Shown here: positions 46,548-62,056 of the stretch, piece after piece
How positions within the stretch are numbered: position 1 is the first letter of the stretch
How the letters are laid out: every line of letters begins with the position of its first letter
Assembly: GCF_014268455.2 (NCBI RefSeq)
Contig: NZ_CP077085.1
Coordinates: 2,769,001-2,833,000 of the forward strand
DNA: 64,000 bases
Origin: Pseudomonas shahriarae
Lineage (GTDB): Bacteria; Pseudomonadota; Gammaproteobacteria; Pseudomonadales; Pseudomonadaceae
Direction: 5' to 3'
The notes under the pieces: model-generated
The model's database searches: none
Told to the model about the DNA's origin: nothing
What the model saw: only the letters and a program-made list of their open reading frames with translations
Position numbers and translations under genes: made by a program

Positions 46548-46561
46548 TTGATCGCCATCAA
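46548..46561 (+). promoter_or_regulatory. Dnr/Anr box and promoter of norC
   Basis: TTGATCGCCATCAA, a perfect FNR-type palindrome. TATCAT at 46585-46590 sits where a -10 hexamer should be if the box is centred at -41.5, placing the transcript start near 46596, 24 bp before norC. Confidence 0.85.
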
Positions 46562-48557: not shown

Positions 48558-50399
48558 ATGGCCTTTACCCTTGAGTTGGAAGAGTGGGTCGGCAGTGTCT
48601 GGCACCGCTTTATCACCCGCCGCGCCAGTGCCGACTTCCCCGAGGCGCGGGTCGATCTGGTCGACCGCCAGCGCAGCCTGGCCCTGTTGTTCCGCGCCCT
48701 GGGCGGCGCCCATGGGATAGCCGTGGAAGCCGCCAGCGAGCGCGATCTGCTGCTGCGGCGCAACCTGTTGATGCGTATCGCCGGCACCTGCCGGCAGGCG
48801 CCCCTGGCCTCGTGCGATGGTCATCGCCTGCGCCTGCCGGCAAGCCTGGCGGTGTTTCCCTCGGCCGCCCTGAACCTGGAACTGTACCGCTGGCTGGCGC
48901 TGCTGGCCGCGCACGCCGGGCCGATGACCCACTGGGCCCGGGACAATCAGCGCTGGACCTGGCTGCTGTTGCAGCGCTACCCGGCCATGCTCCCCAGTTA
49001 TCAGCGCCTGGTGGACGCCCACCTGCAATTGCGCCCCGATCCCGCCACCCTCAACCCCGCCGAAGCTGCCGTAGAAAAAGCCTTGCGCAAGGCCCTGCGC
49101 GAACCCGGCAGCATCCGCCAGTTACCCCGCAGCGAGCGCGCCGCCTGGCCGTTGCCGCTGTGGCTGTATCCACCCTTGCACCTGCACAGCCCGCAGGCCG
49201 CAGATCAGGACGAAGAGGGCGACGACCTGGCAACCCGGCCCGGCGAACAGCAGGGTGCGCCTAAACAGGCCAACCGGGTCGACGACAACAGCCGCGACGG
49301 CGGCCTGTTGGTGGTGCGCCTGGAAAACCTGTTCAGTTGGACCGAGCATGTCGATCTGGACCGCTGGGCCGACGATTCCGAGGACGAAGATGCCGCGCGG
49401 GTCGCCGAAGACCTCGACCAGTTGAGCCTGTCGCGCCAGCGCGTGCGCAAGAGCGGCGGGCTCAAGTTGCACCTGGATCTGCCCCCGGCCGACGTCGACG
49501 ATATCCCCCTGGGCGAAGGCATCAAGCTGCCCGAGTGGGACTACCGCCAACAGTGCCTGCAAGCGAATTTCGTCAACCTGCAACTGATGCAACCCCGGGA
49601 CAGTGCGCCCCAGCCGTTGCCGGCGCGCCTGTTGCCCCAGGCCGCGCGCTTGCGCCGCCAGTTCCAGCAACTGCGCACCGACCGCCAATGGCTGCGCCAA
49701 CAGCCCCAGGGCGCAGAACTGGACCTGCAGGCGTGGTTGGACTTCCATGTCGAACGCCAGCACGGAGCGTGCGCCGAACGTGGCCTGTTCAAGGAGCAGC
49801 GCCGCACCCGGCGGGACCTGGCCTGTTTGCTGCTGGCCGATTTGTCGATGTCCACCGACGCCCATTTGAACAATACGCAAAAGGTCATTGACGTGATCCG
49901 CGACAGCCTGTTGCTGTTTGGCGAAAGCCTGGCGGGCCTGGGCGATGCGTTTGCCTTGTATGGCTTCTCGTCTTTGCGTCGCCAGCAGGTGCGCCTGCAG
50001 CAGCTCAAGTCATTCCAGCAACCCTACGACGACCATACCCGTGGCTGCATTCAGGGCCTGAAACCGGGTTATTACACGCGCATGGGCGCAGCCATCCGCC
50101 ACGCCACCCAGACCCTGGGGGCCTGCAAGCAACGGCGCAAACTGCTGTTGATTGTGACCGATGGCAAGCCCAACGACCTGGACTTGTATGAGGGGCGCTA
50201 TGGCGTGGAGGACACCCGCCAGGCCGTGATGGAAGCGCGGCGCCAGGGCCTGGTGCCGTTCTGCATCACCATCGACAAACAGGCCGGGGATTACTTGCCG
50301 TACATGTTCGGCGCCCACGGCTACACCCTGATCCGTCAGCCGGAGCAACTGCCGTTACGCTTGCCGCAGCTCTACCGGCAGTTGACCGAAGATCAGTAG
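48558..50399 (+). CDS. norD: Nitric oxide reductase activation protein NorD
   Basis: 613 residues. A variable N-terminal half is followed by a von Willebrand A domain (~415-610) whose metal site DLSMS (D428, S430, S432) and later TDGKPND are intact. NorD works with the AAA+ protein NorQ/NirQ to mature NorCB by inserting the FeB iron. No norQ is present in the window. GGAG precedes the start. The last 7 bases overlap the convergent small zinc-ribbon gene. Confidence 0.93.
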   Translation: MAFTLELEEWVGSVWHRFITRRASADFPEARVDLVDRQRSLALLFRALGGAHGIAVEAASERDLLLRRNLLMRIAGTCRQAPLASCDGHRLRLPASLAVFPSAALNLELYRWLALLAAHAGPMTHWARDNQRWTWLLLQRYPAMLPSYQRLVDAHLQLRPDPATLNPAEAAVEKALRKALREPGSIRQLPRSERAAWPLPLWLYPPLHLHSPQAADQDEEGDDLATRPGEQQGAPKQANRVDDNSRDGGLLVVRLENLFSWTEHVDLDRWADDSEDEDAARVAEDLDQLSLSRQRVRKSGGLKLHLDLPPADVDDIPLGEGIKLPEWDYRQQCLQANFVNLQLMQPRDSAPQPLPARLLPQAARLRRQFQQLRTDRQWLRQQPQGAELDLQAWLDFHVERQHGACAERGLFKEQRRTRRDLACLLLADLSMSTDAHLNNTQKVIDVIRDSLLLFGESLAGLGDAFALYGFSSLRRQQVRLQQLKSFQQPYDDHTRGCIQGLKPGYYTRMGAAIRHATQTLGACKQRRKLLLIVTDGKPNDLDLYEGRYGVEDTRQAVMEARRQGLVPFCITIDKQAGDYLPYMFGAHGYTLIRQPEQLPLRLPQLYRQLTEDQ

Positions 50400-50593
50400 A
50401 AGTCCCGGGGCAGCCAGAAAAACATCACGATGCAGAACACGGCCAGCCCCAGGCAGAACCATTGGAAGCGCTTGAGCCGTCGCGCCTCAAGGTGTGCGGT
50501 GGAGGCGGGCAGGGGCATGGCGCAGCGTTCGCAGGCCGTCTGCGCCGGCGGGTTGGCATGTTGGCAATACAGGCAGACCCGCACGGCGTTCAT
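50393..50593 (-). CDS. Small zinc-ribbon membrane protein (DnrP-like)
   Basis: 66 residues: an N-terminal zinc ribbon CLYCQHANPPAQTACERC (four cysteines) and one C-terminal membrane span (FQWFCLGLAVFCIVMFFWLP). Its ATG overlaps the dnr stop as ATGA, so it is translated with dnr. Small proteins at this place in Pseudomonas denitrification clusters have been annotated DnrP; the name is from memory. Function unknown. Confidence 0.8.
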   Translation of the reverse strand: MNAVRVCLYCQHANPPAQTACERCAMPLPASTAHLEARRLKRFQWFCLGLAVFCIVMFFWLPRDFY

Positions 50594-51309
50594 TCGAATT
50601 GCTCCAGGCGCAGGCGGTCAAGAATGGCGATCTGGCGCCCGTCCTGGGTGATGATTTTTTCGTCGATCAAGCGGCGAATGATCCGCGAAAACGTCTCCGG
50701 TTGGATCGACAGGTGCCCGGCGATCAACTGCTTGGCCATGGGCAGTTCGAACGAACTGTCGACGCTGTGCAGGCGCACCAGTTGCGTCATCAGGTAACGC
50801 ACCACCCGGTGGGTGGCGTTTTTCAGCGACAGGGTCTCGATCTCGTTGACCCGTTGGTGCAGGCGCACACACAACTTGCCCAGCAGGGCGAAAGTCAGGC
50901 GGCTGTTGCTGTGGAGCAGGCGCATATAGGTGGCGTTGGACAGGCGATACAACTGCGTGGGGCACACCGCTTCGGCGCAGGCCACGTAGTTGGGCGTGTC
51001 CATCAGCATCATCGCCTCGGCGAAGGTCTGTCGTTCGCCGATCACCTCAAAGACTTTTTCCTGGCCGTCCGGGGTCAGGCGGTAGACCTTCACCGCGCCG
51101 GCAATCACGAAGTAAAACGCATCGGCCGGTTCGCCCTGGCGGAACAACGGCTCGCCCTTGTCGACACTCAGCAGTTGACTGCTGGCCATCAACTCATCCA
51201 TCTGCTCTTCGTTGAGCGGCTCGAACAGGTGATGGCTGCGCAGGATCTGATGATGCACGCGGTGCAAAACCCGGGGTGCATCCTTGGAACAGCTCAGGGA
51301 CGGGATCAT
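50590..51309 (-). CDS. dnr: Dnr, NO-responsive Crp/Fnr-type regulator
   Basis: 239 residues from ATG 51309, which overlaps the stop of the upstream 29-codon ORF. An N-terminal sensor domain (SHHLFEPLNEEQMDELMASS, FRQGEPADAFYFVIAGAVKVYRL, EKVFEVIGERQTFAEAMMLMDTPNYVA) is followed by the dimer helix and a winged helix (NATHRVVRYLMTQL, AGHLSIQPETFSRIIRRL). It closely follows P. aeruginosa Dnr. No FNR-type cysteine cluster is present, so it senses NO through heme rather than oxygen. Likely targets here are norC, nnrS and possibly pdxH and ubiU. Its promoter carries NorR-type sites and a sigma-54 element. Confidence 0.94.
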   Translation of the reverse strand: MIPSLSCSKDAPRVLHRVHHQILRSHHLFEPLNEEQMDELMASSQLLSVDKGEPLFRQGEPADAFYFVIAGAVKVYRLTPDGQEKVFEVIGERQTFAEAMMLMDTPNYVACAEAVCPTQLYRLSNATYMRLLHSNSRLTFALLGKLCVRLHQRVNEIETLSLKNATHRVVRYLMTQLVRLHSVDSSFELPMAKQLIAGHLSIQPETFSRIIRRLIDEKIITQDGRQIAILDRLRLEQFE

Positions 51310-51395
51310 ACAAGCCACAACGACAGGCCGCTGGCCGCCGCCATCATCGAACCGAGGATCACGAACCAGGCGAGGGGCTGGATGACTTTTTTCAT
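51306..51395 (-). CDS. 29-residue membrane peptide translationally coupled to dnr
   Basis: MKKVIQPLAWFVILGSMMAA and nine further residues: a short basic start and a single hydrophobic span. CGGAG lies five bases before its ATG (51395), and its TGA overlaps the dnr ATG as ATGA. It is the first ORF after the predicted sigma-54 start site. A coding role is supported by the ribosome site, the overlap and the membrane-like composition; function is unknown. It may instead act only as a leader for dnr translation. Confidence 0.6.
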   Translation of the reverse strand: MKKVIQPLAWFVILGSMMAAASGLSLWLV

Positions 51396-51435
51396 GGTGA
51401 CTCCGTGGGGGCGGTAATAAGGGATAACCGAGTAG

Positions 51436-51452
51436 AGCAAGAGCTGGGCCAA
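51436..51452 (-). promoter_or_regulatory. Sigma-54 (-24/-12) promoter of the peptide-dnr operon
   Basis: Minus strand TTGGCCCAGCTCTTGCT: GG and GC exactly ten bases apart, with TTGC at -12. It lies about 41 bp before the 29-codon ORF and 40 bp downstream of the nearest NorR-type site. Confidence 0.72.
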
Positions 51453-51491
51453 GGCACGGGCCTTGTAAAACCTGGGCTGTAGCGCCTTGAG

Positions 51492-51548
51492 GGTCAAAAT
51501 GACCTGGCCTATAAGGGTTTTTTTAACCCTCTAATGGTTATTTAAACC
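51492..51548. promoter_or_regulatory. Three NorR-type enhancer sites (GGT-N7-ACC)
   Basis: GGTCAAAATGACC (51492-51504), GGTTTTTTTAACC (51516-51528) and GGTTATTTAAACC (51536-51548), centres 24 and 20 bp apart. Three tandem sites of this form are the known arrangement for NorR enhancers in Ralstonia and E. coli. Confidence 0.78.
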
Positions 51549-51750: not shown

Positions 51751-51764
51751 TTGATCTGCGACAA
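51751..51764 (+). promoter_or_regulatory. Imperfect Dnr/Anr box upstream of nnrS
   Basis: TTGATCTGCGACAA: perfect left half, right half GACAA against ATCAA. Centre 65 bp before the nnrS ATG. Confidence 0.5.
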
Positions 51765-51822: not shown

Positions 51823-53010
51823 ATGCAAGTGCTGGATCGACGCAAGGCTATGTCGATTACCCCGTTGTTTCGCCTGGCTTTCCGGCCATTTTTCCTCGGT
51901 GGCTGCCTGTTGGCGCTGCTGGCGATCCCCCTGTGGCTGCTGGCCCTGGCCGGCGATGCGGGCTGGCAGCCGGCGGGCGGTTGGCTGGCGTGGCATCGCC
52001 ATGAGCTGCTGTTCGGTTTTGCCCTGGCAATCATCGGCGGGTTCCTGCTGACGGCGGTGCAGACCTGGACCGGCCGCCCCGGCATCAGCGGCATGCCCCT
52101 GGCGGTGCTGGCCGGGGTATGGCTGGCCGCACGCCTGGCCTGGCTGTTCAACCTGCCGTGGCCGCTGCTGGCGGTGCTGGAGCTGAGCTTTCCCCTGGCG
52201 GTCGCCGGGCTGATGGGCTGGACCCTGTGGAAAGTGCGACAACAACGCAACTACCCGATTGTGCTGGTCCTGCTGTTGTTGGCCCTGGCCGATGGCCTGT
52301 CCCTGTATGGCCTGCTGCGCGCTGACGAAGGCTGGCAGCGCCAGGCGGTGTTGACCGGGTTGTGGCTGGTGGCGGCGATGATGGGCTTGATCGGCGGGCG
52401 GGTGATTCCGTTCTTCACCCAGCGAGGCCTGGGGCGCACTGAAGCAGTGAAGCCCTGGCCGTGGCTGGATTACCTGCTGTTGGCAGGCTCGGCGCTGGTG
52501 GCGCTGCTGTATGCCAGCGGCGTGGCGCTGATGCCCAGCCTTTGGGTCGGCCTGTTGTTTGCCCTGCTGGGGCTCGGTCATCTGCTGCGCCTGGTGCGCT
52601 GGCACGACCCAGGCTTGTGGCGCGTGCCGCTGCTGTGGTCGCTGCACCTGGCCTATGCCTGGCTGGCTGTGGCCTGCCTGGGTATGGCGCTGTGGCACGT
52701 GGGCGTGCCACTGAGCCCGAGCCTGGCGGTGCATGCGCTGACGGTCGGGGCAATGGGCGGGTTGATCCTGGCGATGATCGCGCGGGTCAGCCTCGGTCAT
52801 ACCGGCCGGCCTCTGACGCCGCCCAAGGGCATGACCCTGGCTTTCGCGCTGTTGAACCTGACCTGCCTGAGCCGGGTGCTGCTGGTGCTGATCTGGCCGT
52901 ATGCCGCGCTGTGGCTGGCGGGCCTGTGCTGGACCCTGGGCCTGGGCCTGTATCTATGGCGCTATGCCCCAATGCTGTGGCGTGCGCGGGTTGACGGCCA
53001 TCCGGGCTAG
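51823..53010 (+). CDS. nnrS: NnrS, heme/copper membrane protein linked to NO stress
   Basis: 395 residues from ATG 51823 (GAGGAG upstream); a longer frame from 51751 starts inside the Dnr box. About twelve membrane spans. Conserved blocks are LFRLAFRPFFLGG, WHRHELLFGFALAIIGGFLLTAVQTWTG, GRVIPFFTQRGLG, LSPSLAVHALTVGAMGGLILAMIARVSLGHTGRPL. Its histidines bind heme and copper. NnrS relieves NO/nitrosative stress, partly by lowering iron-NO complexes. It lies next to dnr and is followed 10 bp later by a second membrane protein. Confidence 0.94.
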   Translation: MQVLDRRKAMSITPLFRLAFRPFFLGGCLLALLAIPLWLLALAGDAGWQPAGGWLAWHRHELLFGFALAIIGGFLLTAVQTWTGRPGISGMPLAVLAGVWLAARLAWLFNLPWPLLAVLELSFPLAVAGLMGWTLWKVRQQRNYPIVLVLLLLALADGLSLYGLLRADEGWQRQAVLTGLWLVAAMMGLIGGRVIPFFTQRGLGRTEAVKPWPWLDYLLLAGSALVALLYASGVALMPSLWVGLLFALLGLGHLLRLVRWHDPGLWRVPLLWSLHLAYAWLAVACLGMALWHVGVPLSPSLAVHALTVGAMGGLILAMIARVSLGHTGRPLTPPKGMTLAFALLNLTCLSRVLLVLIWPYAALWLAGLCWTLGLGLYLWRYAPMLWRARVDGHPG

Positions 53011-53492: not shown

Positions 53493-53969
53493 TCAGGCTG
53501 TTAGCGCACGAACAAACAACACGTCATTTTCCAGATGAATATGCTCCAGCAAGTCTGCATGAAACGCTTCCAGCCCTTGATACAGGGTGCGCCAGGTATT
53601 GCACGCGTCAGCCGGCGGCTGGATGCGATGGGTCAGCGCCAGCAACTGCTCCAGGGCCTGGCCGTGTTGTTCATGCTCATAGCGCATGACCTGGATCGGC
53701 GGCGCGGCCTGGGGGCCCATGCCCATTTGCAGCATCGGGAACAGCACCTGTTCCTCCTTGAGCATATGGCCCTCCAGTTCCTGCTCGATATCCCGCAACA
53801 AGTCGGCCAGGCCATTGGGGCAGGCCAGGTGATGGCCGTGGACCTGCTCGACGCGGCTGGCCAGGCGGATCAGTTCCGGCAGTTGTTCGCGGTGGCGGGC
53901 GTGGTAACGCTGCAGCAAATGCTCGATCAATTGCGCTTGGGGCAGGCTGTCCGGGGCGATGGCGTTCAT
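53493..53969 (-). CDS. Hemerythrin-domain iron-sulfur repair protein, RIC/DnrN-like, lacking the N-terminal domain
   Basis: 158 residues. The di-iron ligands of the RIC (YtfE/ScdA/DnrN) hemerythrin domain are present: HLLQRYHARHREQ, HHLACPNG, LEGHMLKEEQVLFPML, RYEHEQHG and FHADLLEHIHLENDVLF. RIC proteins usually have ~220 residues with an N-terminal ScdA domain (FCCGG-type cysteines); that part is missing here. It should repair or protect iron-sulfur clusters damaged by NO, or bind NO. Divergent from norR, with a sigma-54 promoter and NorR-type sites upstream. Confidence 0.85.
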   Translation of the reverse strand: MNAIAPDSLPQAQLIEHLLQRYHARHREQLPELIRLASRVEQVHGHHLACPNGLADLLRDIEQELEGHMLKEEQVLFPMLQMGMGPQAAPPIQVMRYEHEQHGQALEQLLALTHRIQPPADACNTWRTLYQGLEAFHADLLEHIHLENDVLFVRALTA

Positions 53970-54006: not shown

Positions 54007-54022
54007 TGCATGCCTTGTGCCA
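54007..54022 (-). promoter_or_regulatory. Sigma-54 (-24/-12) promoter of the hemerythrin gene
   Basis: Minus strand TGGCACAAGGCATGCA: TGGCAC at -24 and GC ten bases on at -12, 38 bp before the ATG. Confidence 0.72.
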
Positions 54023-54062: not shown

Positions 54063-54100
54063 GGTCAGGAACACCCTGATGCTGCACGGTAGAACCGACC
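54063..54100. promoter_or_regulatory. Two NorR-type sites between norR and the hemerythrin gene
   Basis: GGTCAGGAACACC (54063-54075) and GGTAGAACCGACC (54088-54100), both GGT-N7-ACC, centres 25 bp apart. They lie just before norR and 45-80 bp upstream of the -24 element. Confidence 0.7.
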
Positions 54101-54114
54101 ATACAAGGGTAGCA

Positions 54115-55638
54115 ATGACCATGTTGCGTGAAAGTCTGTCGGCCGATCTGATTGTCGAACTGCCCAATGCTGTGCGCCTGCAACGCCTGGTGCAGACCCT
54201 GCGTGAATATTTCCATAGCGGCGCCGTGGGCCTGTTGCGCCTGGACGGCGACGACAGCCTGCGCCCGGTGGCCACGGTGGGGCTGGTGCATGAGGCCCTT
54301 GGCCGACGCTTTGTGATTGCCCAGCACCCGCGGCTGGCGGCGATCATGGCGTCCCGCGAGCCGACCTGGTTCGAACCCGACAGCCGCCTGCCGGACCCGT
54401 ATGACGGGTTACTCGATACCCAGGTCGGCGAACCGCTGCCGGTGCATGACTGCATGGGCGTGAGCCTGTTCGTCGAAGGCCGGCCCTGGGGCGCGATCAC
54501 CCTGGACGCGCTGCATGCCGGGACCTTCGACGCCAATGCCCGCGAGCAACTCAAGCGCTGCACCTTGCAGATCGAGGCCGCGGTGCGGGTCACACGCCTG
54601 GAGCAGGAAAACCGCAGCCTGCGCCTGTCGCGCAATGAACCACTGGCGGGTTTGCCCAGCGTCGAAGATGGCGAAATCCTCGGCCAGAGCCCGGTGCTGC
54701 ATCAACTGCTCAACGAGCTGGATGTGCTCGCCGATTCGGACCTGCCGGTGCTGCTGCTCGGCGAAACCGGGGTGGGCAAGGAGTTGTTTGCGCGCCGTCT
54801 GCATCGCCTGTCGCGGCGCAGTAAAAAGCCGCTGATCCAGGTCAACTGCGCGGCGCTGCCGGAGTCGTTGGCCGAGAGCGAGTTGTTCGGGCATGTCAAA
54901 GGTGCGTTTTCCGGCGCCACCAGCGACCGTGCCGGGCGTTTTGATGCGGCCAACGGCGGCACGCTGTTCCTCGATGAAGTGGGCGAGTTGCCGTTGAGTG
55001 TGCAGGCCAAACTGCTGCGCACCTTGCAGAACGGCGAGATCCAGCGCCTGGGTGCCGACAAGCCGTTGCATGTGGATGTACGGATTATCGCCGCGACCAA
55101 CCGCCACCTGCCCGAGAGCATTCGCCAAGGATTGTTTCGCGCCGATCTGTACCACCGACTGTCGGTGTACCCGGTACCGATCCCGGCGCTGCGCGAGCGT
55201 GGCCACGATGTGCTGCTGCTGGCCGGGCATTTCCTGGAGCTCAACCGGGCGCGCCTGGGCCTGCGCGGTTTGCGTCTGTCTCCGGCGGCCGAGCAGACCC
55301 TGCTCGGTTATGCCTGGCCGGGCAATGTCCGCGAGCTGGAACACGTGATCAGCCGCGCCGCTCTGAAGCAGTTGAGCCGGGGTGGCAATCGCAACCAGAT
55401 CATGACCCTGGAAGCCGAGCTGCTGGATCTCGACAGCGCCACCTTGGCCCAGGCCCCTGTGCCTGAAGTGCCGGCGCCGGCGTTCCAGAGCTTGAGCGAT
55501 GCGGTGGACGACTGCCAGCGCCAGAAGGTGCGCCAGGCGTTGAGCCTGTCCGGCGATAACTGGGCCAGCGCTGCGCGCATGCTCGGCCTGGACTCCAGCA
55601 ACCTGCACAAACTGGCGCGGCGCCTGGGGCTCAAGTAA
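54115..55638 (+). CDS. norR: NorR, NO-sensing sigma-54-dependent activator
   Basis: 507 residues from ATG 54115 (AAGGG upstream); a GTG at 54061 lies within the NorR-site region. An N-terminal GAF domain (~1-170, non-heme iron NO sensor in NorR) precedes a AAA+ domain (~190-425) with Walker A LLLGETGVGKELFAR, GHVKGAFSGAT (Ser in place of the usual Thr of GAFTGA), NGGTLFLDEVGELPL and ALRERGHDV. The C-terminal Fis-type helix-turn-helix is ALSLSGDNWASAARMLGLDSSNLHKLARRLGL. It should activate sigma-54 promoters upstream of dnr and of the hemerythrin gene on NO binding. Confidence 0.92.
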   Translation: MTMLRESLSADLIVELPNAVRLQRLVQTLREYFHSGAVGLLRLDGDDSLRPVATVGLVHEALGRRFVIAQHPRLAAIMASREPTWFEPDSRLPDPYDGLLDTQVGEPLPVHDCMGVSLFVEGRPWGAITLDALHAGTFDANAREQLKRCTLQIEAAVRVTRLEQENRSLRLSRNEPLAGLPSVEDGEILGQSPVLHQLLNELDVLADSDLPVLLLGETGVGKELFARRLHRLSRRSKKPLIQVNCAALPESLAESELFGHVKGAFSGATSDRAGRFDAANGGTLFLDEVGELPLSVQAKLLRTLQNGEIQRLGADKPLHVDVRIIAATNRHLPESIRQGLFRADLYHRLSVYPVPIPALRERGHDVLLLAGHFLELNRARLGLRGLRLSPAAEQTLLGYAWPGNVRELEHVISRAALKQLSRGGNRNQIMTLEAELLDLDSATLAQAPVPEVPAPAFQSLSDAVDDCQRQKVRQALSLSGDNWASAARMLGLDSSNLHKLARRLGLK

Positions 55639-55668: not shown

Positions 55669-55682
55669 TTGATCGCGATCAA
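55669..55682 (+). promoter_or_regulatory. Anr/Dnr box upstream of pdxH-moaB-moeA
   Basis: TTGATCGCGATCAA, a perfect FNR-type palindrome centred 62 bp before the pdxH ATG, the same spacing as at norC. Confidence 0.8.
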
Positions 55683-55737: not shown

Positions 55738-56385
55738 ATGCCCCTTTCCCTGGCGCAGATGCGCCGCAACTACACCCTGTACGGTTTGCGGGATGACCTG
55801 GTACAGGACGATCCCCTCGTATTGTTCGGCCAGTGGCTGGAGCAGGCGCGCAAGACTGAAGTGGCGCCGGTGGAGGCCAACAGCATGGCCCTGGCCACCG
55901 TCGATGCCCAGGGCCGTGCCCATTGCCGGATCCTCTTGCTCAAGGGCTTCAGCGCTGAAGGCTTCACCTTTTTCGGCCACTACCAGAGCGCCAAGGGCCA
56001 GGAGCTGGCGAGCAATCCCAGCGCGGCCATGACCTTTTTCTGGCCGGGCCTGGAACGCCAGGTGCGCATCGAAGGCACGGTCGTGCGTTTGGCGCCGCAG
56101 CTGTCCGATGAGTACTTCAACTCACGGCCCCTGGCCAGCCAGGTCGGCGCCTGGGCGTCGCCGCAAAGCCAGCCCCTGGCCCATCGCGCCGAGCTGGAAG
56201 GCCGTCTGCGCGATGCCACCCAACGCTTTGCCGGGCAACCACCGCCGCGCCCGGCGGAGTGGGGCGGTTACTGCCTGCAACCCGAGCGTGTGGAGTTCTG
56301 GCAGGGCCGCGCCGATCGCCTGCACGACCGCCTCGATTACCGCCTGCACGACGGCACCTGGCAGCGCAGCCGCCTGGCCCCCTGA
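55738..56385 (+). CDS. pdxH: Pyridoxamine/pyridoxine 5'-phosphate oxidase
   Basis: 215 residues, the normal PdxH length. Signatures: [74 protein letters not shown], and the C-terminal [15 protein letters not shown]...RSRLAP. It makes pyridoxal 5'-phosphate with FMN and oxygen. Its place after norR, before moaB, and behind a perfect Anr/Dnr box is odd for an oxygen-dependent enzyme. It may be a second paralogue rather than the housekeeping gene. Confidence 0.92.
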
Positions 56386-58328: not shown

Positions 58329-59324
58329 ATGCAACTGGTCTGCCCGGCAGGCAATCTGCCTGCGCTCAAAGCCGCCGTGCGCCAAGGTGCCGATGCGGTG
58401 TACGTGGGGTTTCGCGATGACACCAACGCCCGGCATTTTGCCGGGCTGAATATGGACGACAAGCAGTTCGACGGTGCCGTCGCCCATATCCGCCAGCACC
58501 AGCGCAAGCTGTATGTGGCCGTCAATACCTACCCGCAACCCAAGGGCTGGGAGCGCTGGCAACGGGCGGTGGACCGCGCTGCCGACCATGGCGTGGATGC
58601 CCTGATCGCAGGTGATCCGGGGGTGCTGCAGTACGCCAGCAGCCGCCATCCGCAAATGGCCTTGCACCTTTCCGTACAGGGCTCGGCTACCCATGCGGCG
58701 GCGTTGCAGTTCTACGCCGAGCGCTACGGTATCCGTCGTGCGGTTTTGCCCCGGGTGTTGTCCTTGGCCCAGGTCAAGCATGTGGCCGCCAGCAGCTCGG
58801 TGCCGATTGAGGTGTTTGGCTTTGGCAGCCTGTGCATCATGGCCGAGGGCCGTTGCCACCTGTCTTCGTATATCACTGGCGAATCGCCGAACCTGTGTGG
58901 CGTGTGCTCACCGGCCAAGGCGGTGCGCTGGAGTGAAGACGCCGACGGCCTGAGTGCGCGCCTGAGTGAAGTGCTGATCGACCGCTACACCCCGGACGAA
59001 CCGGCAGGCTACCCGACCCTGTGCAAGGGCCGCTTCATGGTCGATGGCAAGCGCTTCCATGCCCTCGAAGAACCCACCAGCCTCGACACCCTGGACCTGA
59101 TCCCCGAGTTGCTCGCCATGGGCGTCGCAGCGGTAAAAATCGAAGGCCGCCAGCGCAGCCCGGCGTATGTCGAGCAAGTCACCGGGGTCTGGCGCGCCGC
59201 GCTGGACGCCCACCGCAGCGCGCCGGAACGCTTTGTGGTCAAGGACCAGTGGCGCAGTGTGCTGGCCGGTCTATCCGAAGGCAGCCAGACCACCCTGGGC
59301 GCCTACCATCGTTCGTGGCAATGA
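58329..59324 (+). CDS. ubiU: UbiU, U32-family protein for oxygen-independent ubiquinone synthesis
   Basis: 331 residues of the U32 peptidase-like family. The 4Fe-4S cysteines are visible in FGSLCIMAEGRCHLSS, NLCGVC and YPTLCKGRF. LVCPAGNLPALKAAVRQGADAVYVGF is the family's N-terminal signature. With UbiV it forms the complex that hydroxylates the ubiquinone ring without oxygen (donor prephenate in E. coli). ATGAGGATC precedes the start. It heads the ubiUVT operon, whose FNR-type box fits induction under low oxygen. Confidence 0.94.
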   Translation: MQLVCPAGNLPALKAAVRQGADAVYVGFRDDTNARHFAGLNMDDKQFDGAVAHIRQHQRKLYVAVNTYPQPKGWERWQRAVDRAADHGVDALIAGDPGVLQYASSRHPQMALHLSVQGSATHAAALQFYAERYGIRRAVLPRVLSLAQVKHVAASSSVPIEVFGFGSLCIMAEGRCHLSSYITGESPNLCGVCSPAKAVRWSEDADGLSARLSEVLIDRYTPDEPAGYPTLCKGRFMVDGKRFHALEEPTSLDTLDLIPELLAMGVAAVKIEGRQRSPAYVEQVTGVWRAALDAHRSAPERFVVKDQWRSVLAGLSEGSQTTLGAYHRSWQ

Positions 59325-59334
59325 GGAGCCGTAC

Positions 59335-60225
59335 ATGAAACTCAGCCTGGGACCGGTGCTGTTTTACTGGGATAAGCAACAACTGGGGCAGTTCTACTCC
59401 GAGATGGCCAGCCTGGCGCTGGATGTGATCTACCTGGGGGAAACCGTGTGCTCCAAACGCCGCGCGTTCAACCTCGATCAATGGTTGGGCCTGGGCCGCG
59501 AATTGCGCTCGGCGGGTAACGCGCAAATCGTGCTGTCGAGCCTGACTCTGATCGAGGCCGCGTCGGAGCTGTCGAGCCTGCGTCGCCTATGTGACAACGG
59601 CGAGGTGTTGGTGGAAGCCAATGACATGGGCGCCGTGCAACTGCTCGCCGAACGCAAGCTGCCCTTTGTCGGCGGCCCGGCGCTGAATCTGTATAACGGC
59701 CACGCTCTCGTGCAATTGCTGGATGCGGGGATGATGCGCTGGGTGCCGCCGGTGGAATGTTCGGCCGCACTGATTGGCGATGTGCTGGAGCAGGTGCGTG
59801 AACTGGGCCGGCCGTTGCCTGAAGTCGAAGTGTTCGCCTATGGGCATCTGCCCCTGGCCTATTCGGCGCGCTGCTTTACGGCGCGGGCGGAAAACCGGCC
59901 CAAGGATGACTGCCAGTTCTGCTGCCTCAACTACCCGGATGGCATGGCCTTGACCAGCCAGGAAGGGCAGGCGCTGTTTACGTTAAATGGCATCCAGACC
60001 ATGTCGGCGGATGTCACCAACCTGTTGGCCGACTATCCCGGGCTGGTCAGTTGCGGCGCCGACCTGCTGCGCCTGAGCCCACGGGCCCAGGGCATGGTGG
60101 GCATCGTCGAAGCCTTTGACCGGGTCCGCCAGGGGGCCACGCCGCCGTTGTTTGTCGAAGGTTGCAATGGCTACTGGCACGGCCAGGCCGGGATGTTGCG
60201 GGTCGAGGAGGTGGGGCTGTGCTGA
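59335..60225 (+). CDS. ubiV: UbiV, U32-family partner of UbiU
   Basis: 296 residues from ATG 59335, 10 bp after ubiU with GAGGAG upstream. Four cluster cysteines are seen: ETVCSKRR near residue 40, SARCFTARAENRPKDDCQFCC around residue 180-200. LGPVLFYWDKQQLGQFYSEMA opens the fold. It binds a 4Fe-4S cluster and pairs with UbiU for anaerobic ubiquinone hydroxylation. Frames starting further upstream overlap ubiU and are not needed. Confidence 0.94.
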   Translation: MKLSLGPVLFYWDKQQLGQFYSEMASLALDVIYLGETVCSKRRAFNLDQWLGLGRELRSAGNAQIVLSSLTLIEAASELSSLRRLCDNGEVLVEANDMGAVQLLAERKLPFVGGPALNLYNGHALVQLLDAGMMRWVPPVECSAALIGDVLEQVRELGRPLPEVEVFAYGHLPLAYSARCFTARAENRPKDDCQFCCLNYPDGMALTSQEGQALFTLNGIQTMSADVTNLLADYPGLVSCGADLLRLSPRAQGMVGIVEAFDRVRQGATPPLFVEGCNGYWHGQAGMLRVEEVGLC

Positions 60226-60913: not shown

Positions 60914-62056
60914 CTATTGCTCCATGGCCTGCAGGATCGCATGGGCCGCTTTCACCCGCTCGGCATTGGGGTAGTTCTTGTTCGCCAGGATCACTACGCC
61001 GATGCCTCTGCTCGGCACATAAGCGATATAGGCGCCAAAGCCACCGGTCGAGCCGGTTTTGTTTACCAGGGTGTTGGCGCGCAGCGGCTGGGCGGGTTTC
61101 AGCCAGGTGACCGGGTGCGGCTCCGTGGCCATGAGCGTCGAATTACCGGCGAGCAGTTCGTCAACACTCAGCGGGTAAGGGTACATCTCCCATCCCAGGC
61201 CCTGGGTGGTGTTGCCCACGGTGTAATAGCCGGTATGGGTGGCGGCGATGGCCTGTTGCAACGGTTGTTCCAACGGCGTCGGGTCCATGTTCAGCGCCAT
61301 GTAGCGGGCCAGGTCCGCCGGGCTGGTCTTCACCCCGTAGGCTTCGCTGTCCAGCGCCCCCGGGCTGACACGCAACGGCTTGCCGGCCTTGTCGTAGCCC
61401 TGGGCATACAGACCCATTTGCGCCTTGGGCACTGTGAGATAGGTGTGCTGGAGGCCGAGCTTGGGCAACAGGGTCTTTTCCATGGCCACATCGAACGGTT
61501 GCTGAAGGCTCTGCGCCGCCAGGTAGCCGAACAGGCCCAGGCTGGGGTTGGAGTACTGGCGGTGGGTGCCAGGGGGAAAAGTGGCTTTCCAGTGCTGGAA
61601 GTAGCCGATCATTTGCTGTGCATTGTCCGCCTTGCTGGGGAACTGCAACGGCAGCCCGCCAGCGGTGTAGGTGCCCAGGTTGAGCACGCTGATGTGATCG
61701 AACAGGCTGCCGCGCAAGGCTGGCAGGTAGTGGCTGGCCGGCTCCGCGAGCTGCAGCTTGCCAGTGGCCTGGGCATAGCCGGCCAGGGTGGCGGTGAAGG
61801 TCTTGCTCACCGAGCCGATCTCGAACAGGGTGTTCTCGCTGACGGGTTGCTGGTTGTCTTTGGTGGCAATACCGTAGTTAAAGTATCGGGCCTTGCCATC
61901 TTGCACGATGGCGACCGCCAGGCCGGGAATTGCCTGCTGCTGCATCAGCGGCTTGACGGTGGCGTCTACCACCTGACGCAGGTCGGCAGCGGCCATGCAG
62001 TTGCCGGCACCGAGCAATAGGCTGAGAATCGTGACGTTGCGCACATGTTGGTACAT
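60914..62056 (-). CDS. ampC: Class C beta-lactamase
   Basis: 380 residues with a signal peptide ending near NCMAA-ADL. Class C motifs: SVSK with catalytic S82 and K85, YSN at 168-170, and KTG at 333-335. Length and the C-terminal ILANKNYPNAERVKAAHAIL are typical of chromosomal Pseudomonas AmpC. It acts in the periplasm on penicillins and cephalosporins. The divergent ampR gene lies 132 bp upstream, so induction through cell-wall fragments is expected. Confidence 0.95.
   Translation of the reverse strand: MYQHVRNVTILSLLLGAGNCMAAADLRQVVDATVKPLMQQQAIPGLAVAIVQDGKARYFNYGIATKDNQQPVSENTLFEIGSVSKTFTATLAGYAQATGKLQLAEPASHYLPALRGSLFDHISVLNLGTYTAGGLPLQFPSKADNAQQMIGYFQHWKATFPPGTHRQYSNPSLGLFGYLAAQSLQQPFDVAMEKTLLPKLGLQHTYLTVPKAQMGLYAQGYDKAGKPLRVSPGALDSEAYGVKTSPADLARYMALNMDPTPLEQPLQQAIAATHTGYYTVGNTTQGLGWEMYPYPLSVDELLAGNSTLMATEPHPVTWLKPAQPLRANTLVNKTGSTGGFGAYIAYVPSRGIGVVILANKNYPNAERVKAAHAILQAMEQ

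Follow-up and report, generated by a model that had tools for sequence, protein, structure and literature searches.

The dnr gene of the window, by which we mean the whole 64,000-nucleotide stretch of Pseudomonas shahriarae DNA analysed here, is preceded by three tandem NorR-type sites and a sigma-54 type promoter, and the best explanation of the data as a whole, which we regard as very probable, is that nitric oxide (NO) acts at two successive steps, through NorR and then through Dnr. Control of dnr by NorR and sigma-54 had been put forward in an initial annotation of this DNA, and as a prediction it is supported by the promoter geometry, the co-variation of the sites with NorR, the different sites of the paralogue FhpR and the induction of dnr in P. 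donghuensis. The directly observed evidence comprises the DNA anatomy, the protein domains and the conservation, together with the NorR co-variation and the distinct FhpR sites.

The dnr upstream region and its predicted transcription unit

The triplet of GGT-N7-ACC sites ahead of dnr was confirmed base for base and in position, and the GG-N10-GC promoter with TTGC at -12 is present in the place first proposed for it (Table 1). Centre-to-centre distances within the triplet are 20 and 24 bp, the promoter element starts 53 nt past the start of site 3 and its predicted +1 falls at 51425. Both hallmarks of NorR-regulated promoters, three tandem GT-N7-AC sites and a -24/-12 element downstream of them, are found here, whereas the AGT-N7-ACT form of site seen before hmp is not, all dnr sites in the window carrying G..C outside the core. 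Single GGT-N7-ACC sites number 32 in the window against a mean of 13.5 by chance, and as this enrichment is only mild (~2.4-fold) lone sites carry little meaning. The spaced triplet occurs in two copies in the whole 6.05-Mb genome, both in the norR/dnr locus, and a reversed-pattern control triplet in none. When the regions ahead of dnr were shuffled 3340 times at the mononucleotide level, dinucleotides not being kept, the GT-N7-AC core triplet arose in 2 cases, and the core triplet with GG-N10-GC at the right distance in 0.

Table 1. Positions of the genes, predicted sites and promoters discussed in the text, numbered along the window.
Feature	Position	Strand	Sequence or basis
Perfect FNR/Dnr box before norC	46548..46561	+	TTGATCGCCATCAA
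66-codon zinc-ribbon-like ORF with a membrane segment and two CxxC pairs	50393..50593	-	
dnr, Crp/Fnr-type regulator	50590..51309	-	Pfam cNMP_binding and HTH_Crp_2
29-codon ORF, probable truncated dnrO with the membrane segment alone	51306..51395	-	ORF comparison
Sigma-54 type -24/-12 promoter before the dnr unit	51436..51451	-	TGGCCCAGCTCTTGCT, TGGCCC-N5-TTGCT
NorR-type site 3	51492..51504	-	GGTCATTTTGACC, GGT-N7-ACC
NorR-type site 2	51516..51528	-	GGTTAAAAAAACC, GGT-N7-ACC
NorR-type site 1, outermost from the promoter	51536..51548	-	GGTTTAAATAACC, GGT-N7-ACC
Degenerate FNR/Dnr-type box	51751..51764	+	TTGATCTGCGACAA, 72 bp ahead of nnrS
nnrS, divergent from the dnr unit	51823..53010	+	Pfam NnrS
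ytfE/dnrN-like hemerythrin gene, predicted second NorR target	53493..53969	-	Pfam Hemerythrin above cut-off
Sigma-54 type promoter of ytfE	54007..54022	-	TGGCACAAGGCATGCA
Second GGT-N7-ACC triplet, between ytfE and norR	54063..54120	-	54108-54120, 54088-54100, 54063-54075
norR	54121..55635	+	NCBIfam NorR (686 bits; cut-off 476); Pfam GAF, sigma-54 activator and lid; HTH

The second triplet lies 2.6 kb from that of dnr, and its centres, 20 and 25 apart, are spaced almost identically. The best NCBIfam family of the ytfE product is YtfE, at 225.6 against a cut-off of 254, and its score is also under the cut-off of NCBIfam DnrN. The genome encodes a NorR with GAF, AAA+ and HTH domains, in which counterparts of the iron ligands R71, D92, D95, C111 and D129 were found by hand count; one spacing is two residues longer than in E. 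coli, and a pattern with the exact spacing did not match. The sigma-54 contact motif reads GAFSGA in NorR and GAFTGA in the FhpR of the same genome.

The order small ORF, dnr and zinc-ribbon ORF with ATGA overlaps, as first described, holds in the window (51309-51306 between small ORF and dnr, 50593-50590 between dnr and the 66-codon ORF), but the overlap of small ORF and dnr is not general, the small ORF of P. marginalis-type loci stopping ~40 nt ahead of an in-frame ATG. The 66-codon ORF matched nothing in Pfam or NCBIfam. Pfam finds a cNMP-binding domain and a Crp-type HTH in the dnr product, which reaches the cut-off of no NCBIfam family; the name dnr follows from the neighbouring genes and from the way P. 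donghuensis is annotated. The small ORF is similar to the N-terminal part of an ORF of 178 aa that occupies the same place in relatives; of ten homologues of that longer ORF, two carry the source name DnrO. When 64 copies chosen for their similarity were compared with that of the window, third codon positions had changed most often (781 vs 497 and 182 at the other two), and the stop codon is the same in 62. This comparison makes a truncated dnrO the likeliest identity of the 29-codon ORF, and given its likeness to DnrO the window unit has the appearance of the O-D portion of a dnrN-O-D order, provided with a putative NorR promoter of its own. Work by Vollack and Zumft from 2001 is said to have found dnrN and dnrO, upstream of dnrD, to be induced by NO. 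A contiguous dnrN-dnrO-dnr operon behind one NorR promoter is not what the window holds, nnrS and another gene standing between. ORFs recognised by eye form a row of ytfE-like ORF, small ORF and dnr behind the triplet in five surveyed genomes (G240, G258, G550, G605 and G587) and of ytfE-like ORF and dnr in G427; in G224, G380, G180 and others the triplet precedes a longer version of the small ORF.

The statement that no FNR-type box lies upstream of dnr proved right for the strict motif, allowing at most one mismatch, and wrong for the degenerate box at 51751-51764, which as seen from the dnr side lies ~200 bp past the NorR sites; a TTGAT-N4-ATCAA box near the dnr start is absent, and the only candidate is this degenerate one on the nnrS side. 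Oxygen might on that account be the main input to dnr, with Anr (or Dnr) acting via the 51751-51764 box or through a sigma-70 promoter that escaped recognition, and with only a minor part left to the NorR module. Besides the existence of the box, such a scheme would agree with the control of dnr by Anr in P. aeruginosa, as given in one abstract, and with a TTGTC-N4-ATCAA box, at a varying distance that is mostly 76-86 nt ahead of the small ORF, which precedes dnr in 13/13 loci of a P. marginalis-type clade lacking the module (among the best 80 of 164 relatives). The window box, however, lies at a distance of 72 bp from nnrS and of ~360 bp from the small ORF, with no strict FNR box in between, and strict TTGACCCTGGTCAA-type matches at most 450 bp from dnr were seen in 3/80 named loci (best 80 of 164) and discounted, all of them overlapping NorR half-sites. 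We consider oxygen improbable as the main input.

Co-occurrence of the triplet with NorR

The same sites were sought upstream of dnr in related genomes and were found there with conserved geometry. The named loci used for this purpose are the best 80 of 164 relatives, a set leaning to close kin, which together with the window give 81 dnr loci; a triplet was called at a minimum of 16 of 18 consensus bases, and NorR was termed full-length when one match covered more than 450 of its 505 residues (that of L108 stops at a contig edge, at 468). A triplet precedes dnr in 65/65 loci with full-length NorR and in 0/16 without it (window plus best 80 of 164), the latter including two scored as having none by hand (L065 and L077, where a triplet at -745 precedes ytfE, which abuts dnr) and two that keep eroded cores. 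A whole-genome search for NorR, covering 28 of the best 80 of 164, found a full NorR elsewhere for 11 loci that have no NorR nearby, and none for 16. On a tree of Dnr, NorB and NorD the triplet and NorR each change 4 times, together in 4/4 independent pairs, and four events are too few for significance (sign test, p 0.125).

Consensus bases are matched 18/18 in 54 of the 64 named module loci (best 80 of 164), with 17 matched in 8 and 16 in 2; across these loci the sites are spaced by 18-20 and 23-25, and the -24/-12 element lies 53-55 nt past the start of site 3 in 61/64. L122, L131 and L133 have ~160 bp extra between the NorR sites and the promoter, and in L122 and L131 (in L133 judging by spacing) this stretch up to the sigma-54 element contains a long inverted repeat. 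The ytfE triplet is 18/18 in 56/57 loci holding ytfE (best 80 of 164), L128 being the exception.

The survey was widened to 398 genomes of the genus; Dnr was detected in 87 (E<=1e-60) and a NorR-like match in 82 (E<=1e-170). The triplet pattern as such occurs in 92/398 of them, compared with 2/398 for the reversed control, and some of these 92 hold plain coding repeats unrelated to NorR, such as a row of GGTGGCCCTGACC in several genomes. Within 1.2 kb upstream of dnr in 87 genomes (86 plus the window, a set overlapping the named one), a triplet of at least 16/18 bases was found in 72/87, and a GG-N10-GC element lies 53-56 nt past the start of site 3 in 70 of those 72. Wherever NorR reaches at least 77% identity, the triplet is found within 1.2 kb of dnr (71/71 genomes). 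In G015 norR lies 1 Mb away from dnr and the triplet is kept at both. Without such a NorR, 15/16 have no dnr triplet, and in the exception, G303, a ytfE triplet lies just upstream; four of the 16 (G013, G054, G248 and G316) encode NorR-like proteins of 62-67% identity. Partial NorR matches in the genus set cover residues 1-444 in G052 and 1-468 in G273. Triplets of GGT-N7-ACC sites away from dnr and ytfE occur at G208:C4 (L274), G015:C1:180043 (L273) and G087:C26 (L275), and may be either NorR targets or chance.

At the level of the family, Dnr was matched in 98 genomes, 87 of them outside the genus, and 43 of these plus 3 more from the genus were examined. Triplets were found in G613, of this genus, and in G550, G605, G587 and G427, which belong to other genera and each carry the triplet ahead of a ytfE-like ORF that itself precedes dnr; G567 has the core only. 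The other 40 have no triplet within 1.2 kb of dnr, and an FNR box lies at most 500 bp from dnr in 5 of these 40. Within this genus group, then, dnr is often under putative NorR control, but the arrangement is not general.

Several lineages have lost parts of NorR. In P. grimontii, P. rhodesiae, one P. marginalis strain and P. veronii (L116, L064, L065 and L077) NorR lacks GAF and retains AAA+ and HTH, the open frame of L077 being 367 aa; all four loci keep the 18/18 ytfE triplet, dnr has no triplet of its own and in two of the four dnr follows ytfE directly. The GAF-less NorR is perhaps constitutive or differently controlled. In P. chlororaphis PCL1601 (L129) the GAF domain is joined straight to the HTH, AAA+ being absent, and the dnr promoter keeps its -24/-12 element, with outer core bases A..C, A..C and G..T; those of Pseudomonas sp. 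Irchel s3h17, which has FhpR only, are G..A, G..A and A..C. Loss of the module at L126 and L129 was considered and set aside, as both, with no intact NorR, keep the GT-N7-AC cores and the promoter before dnr with altered outer bases, i.e. erosion. In L128 and L074 the dnr sites are partly eroded despite a full NorR, and as L128 belongs to the P. chlororaphis lineage a take-over by FhpR in that lineage stays a mere suggestion.

FhpR, 53% identical to NorR and encoded in the same genome divergently from hmp, might drive dnr alone or jointly with NorR. Its three AGT-N7-ACT sites upstream of hmp, a promoter in which no GG-N10-GC match was found, share the GT-N7-AC core and have a similar spacing (19 and 26), and in L126 and L129, with FhpR and no intact NorR, the core is kept and the outer bases have drifted, partly to A or T. 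The outer bases nonetheless differ, 32/36 sites at 12 FhpR loci being A..T (4 have one outer G and none is G..C) as against 178/195 G..C before dnr. An FhpR-like protein (at least 66% identity) is present in 78/80 genomes searched of the 87 from the genus, the two without it (G240 and G273) being fragmented assemblies, and in 16/16 genomes lacking a NorR of at least 77%, yet 15/16 of these have no dnr triplet; FhpR being present with or without the triplet, the triplet tracks NorR and not FhpR. A role of FhpR at dnr is therefore unlikely in our estimation, to the same degree as the oxygen scheme above.

A predicted NO relay and its outputs

In P. donghuensis P482, RNA-seq passages of one study (PMC10256816) give log2 changes of +3.23 for dnr, +6.36 for ytfE, +4.44 for norC, +4.18 for norB and +4.99 for nnrS, with norCBD and hmp also up, norR down and nir genes not up, in M9-glucose with tomato exudate at early stationary phase; in the same passages NO is inferred by the authors, not measured, and no regulator is named for dnr. 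The dnr module is known from P. donghuensis HYS, where it is 18/18, and the RNA-seq from P482. The rise of dnr in P. donghuensis (PMC10256816) also speaks against the module being a functionless relic, as do its geometry, fixed over many species while inner bases vary, and the shuffles, none of which yielded the full module. Relics do occur, for in G032 (L266 and L276) the NorR module and the small ORF stand next to a fragment of norB, as a deletion would leave them, and dnr was not found in that genome; for the window we give this explanation almost no credence.

Under the preferred NorR-Dnr relay, NO would bind the iron centre of the NorR GAF domain, and NorR on its three GGT-N7-ACC enhancer sites would activate sigma-54 RNA polymerase at 51451-51436, so that the short dnrO would be transcribed together with dnr and the zinc-ribbon ORF as one message; ytfE may also be driven by this NorR. 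Dnr would then activate norCB via the box at 46548 and probably nnrS via that at 51751. We infer the binding, the activation, the transcript, NO as the inducer and the action of Dnr on its own boxes. The box before norC is present in 76/76 named loci holding norC and that on the nnrS side in 68/72 loci with a readable nnrS (both among the best 80 of 164 relatives), and in the window norC has no NorR triplet. Three genes of the cytochrome d1 type lie ~0.6 Mb from the locus in the same genome, which can therefore probably make NO from nitrite.

Beyond norR, a perfect TTGATCGCGATCAA box (55669-55682) precedes a pyridoxamine-phosphate-oxidase-like gene (55738-56385). A peptidase-U32-family gene (Pfam; 58329-59324) follows moaB/moeA-like ORFs, and we take it with its adjoining ORF (58329-60225) to be a ubiU/ubiV pair; the ORF at 60914-62056 has a Pfam Beta-lactamase match (serine hydrolase family).

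The usual Pseudomonas scheme places an oxygen sensor above Dnr. Judged from the sequences compared here, Dnr in this strain and in many relatives is probably switched on by NO as well as by lack of oxygen. Tentatively, and with appreciably less confidence, we suggest that in most dnr-bearing species of the genus group the denitrification master switch may be gated by NO via NorR and not by oxygen via Anr, a two-step feed-forward able to run in air, and that on loss of the NorR sensor or ATPase the gate may be lost or, in the P. chlororaphis lineage, the sites may drift FhpR-wards as if the paralogue were taking over. If NorR does stand above Dnr, the onset of denitrification and the escape of NO and N2O from soil and rhizosphere strains would depend on their past exposure to NO, and denitrification could start in aerated cells meeting plant-made NO. 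The distinct outer site bases of the two paralogues and the natural NorR domain losses make the relay testable without heavy engineering.

Comparison with known systems

The mechanism of NorR and its requirement for three sites are described in parts of PMC4601167, and the NO-responsiveness of Dnr in other pseudomonads in parts of Rodionov et al. (2005; PMC1274295). The latter predicted NorR sites before hmp and dnrN of P. stutzeri, so that half of the relay was visible already and the present reading is partly foreshadowed; in its main text dnr is not among the NorR targets and P. fluorescens is not mentioned. A review has P. stutzeri ric controlled by DnrD. Sections of a paper on P. fluorescens F113 mention only NorR2 and DnrS, strain MFAF76a is without NorR, and the portions available of Stutzerimonas and Methylophaga papers hold nothing on NorR above dnr. 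NorR control of dnr is unstated in the titles and abstract openings searched, a scope outside which most subscription journals fall, and within the literature searched we met no mention of a dnr module standing apart, of how widely it occurs, of its tie to an intact NorR or of the site code of the two paralogues.

The closest known systems share some features with the window and differ in others. The E. coli norR-norVW system likewise has a NorR with GAF, AAA+ and HTH domains, three tandem enhancers and a sigma-54 promoter (parts of PMC4601167 and PMC1274295), but the target there is an NO reductase, whereas here a second NO-responsive regulator is the predicted target. P. stutzeri dnrN is alike in its NorR sites and sigma-54 promoter, and the P. 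stutzeri hmp sites at -192, -173 and -148 are 19 and 25 apart, as here (predictions in PMC1274295); unlike the dnrN-dnrO-dnrD arrangement of that species, dnr here has a NorR module of its own, dnrN (ytfE) is separate and dnrO is cut to 29 codons. Ralstonia norA/norB also combines NorR with a target of the YtfE/NorA type (parts of PMC9268430 and PMC1274295), yet there the NO reductase is itself directly under NorR, whilst norC here has a Dnr-type box and no triplet. In P. aeruginosa, as far as its abstract-level description goes, Dnr similarly stands above norCB, but above Dnr is an oxygen sensor (Anr) instead of an NO sensor.
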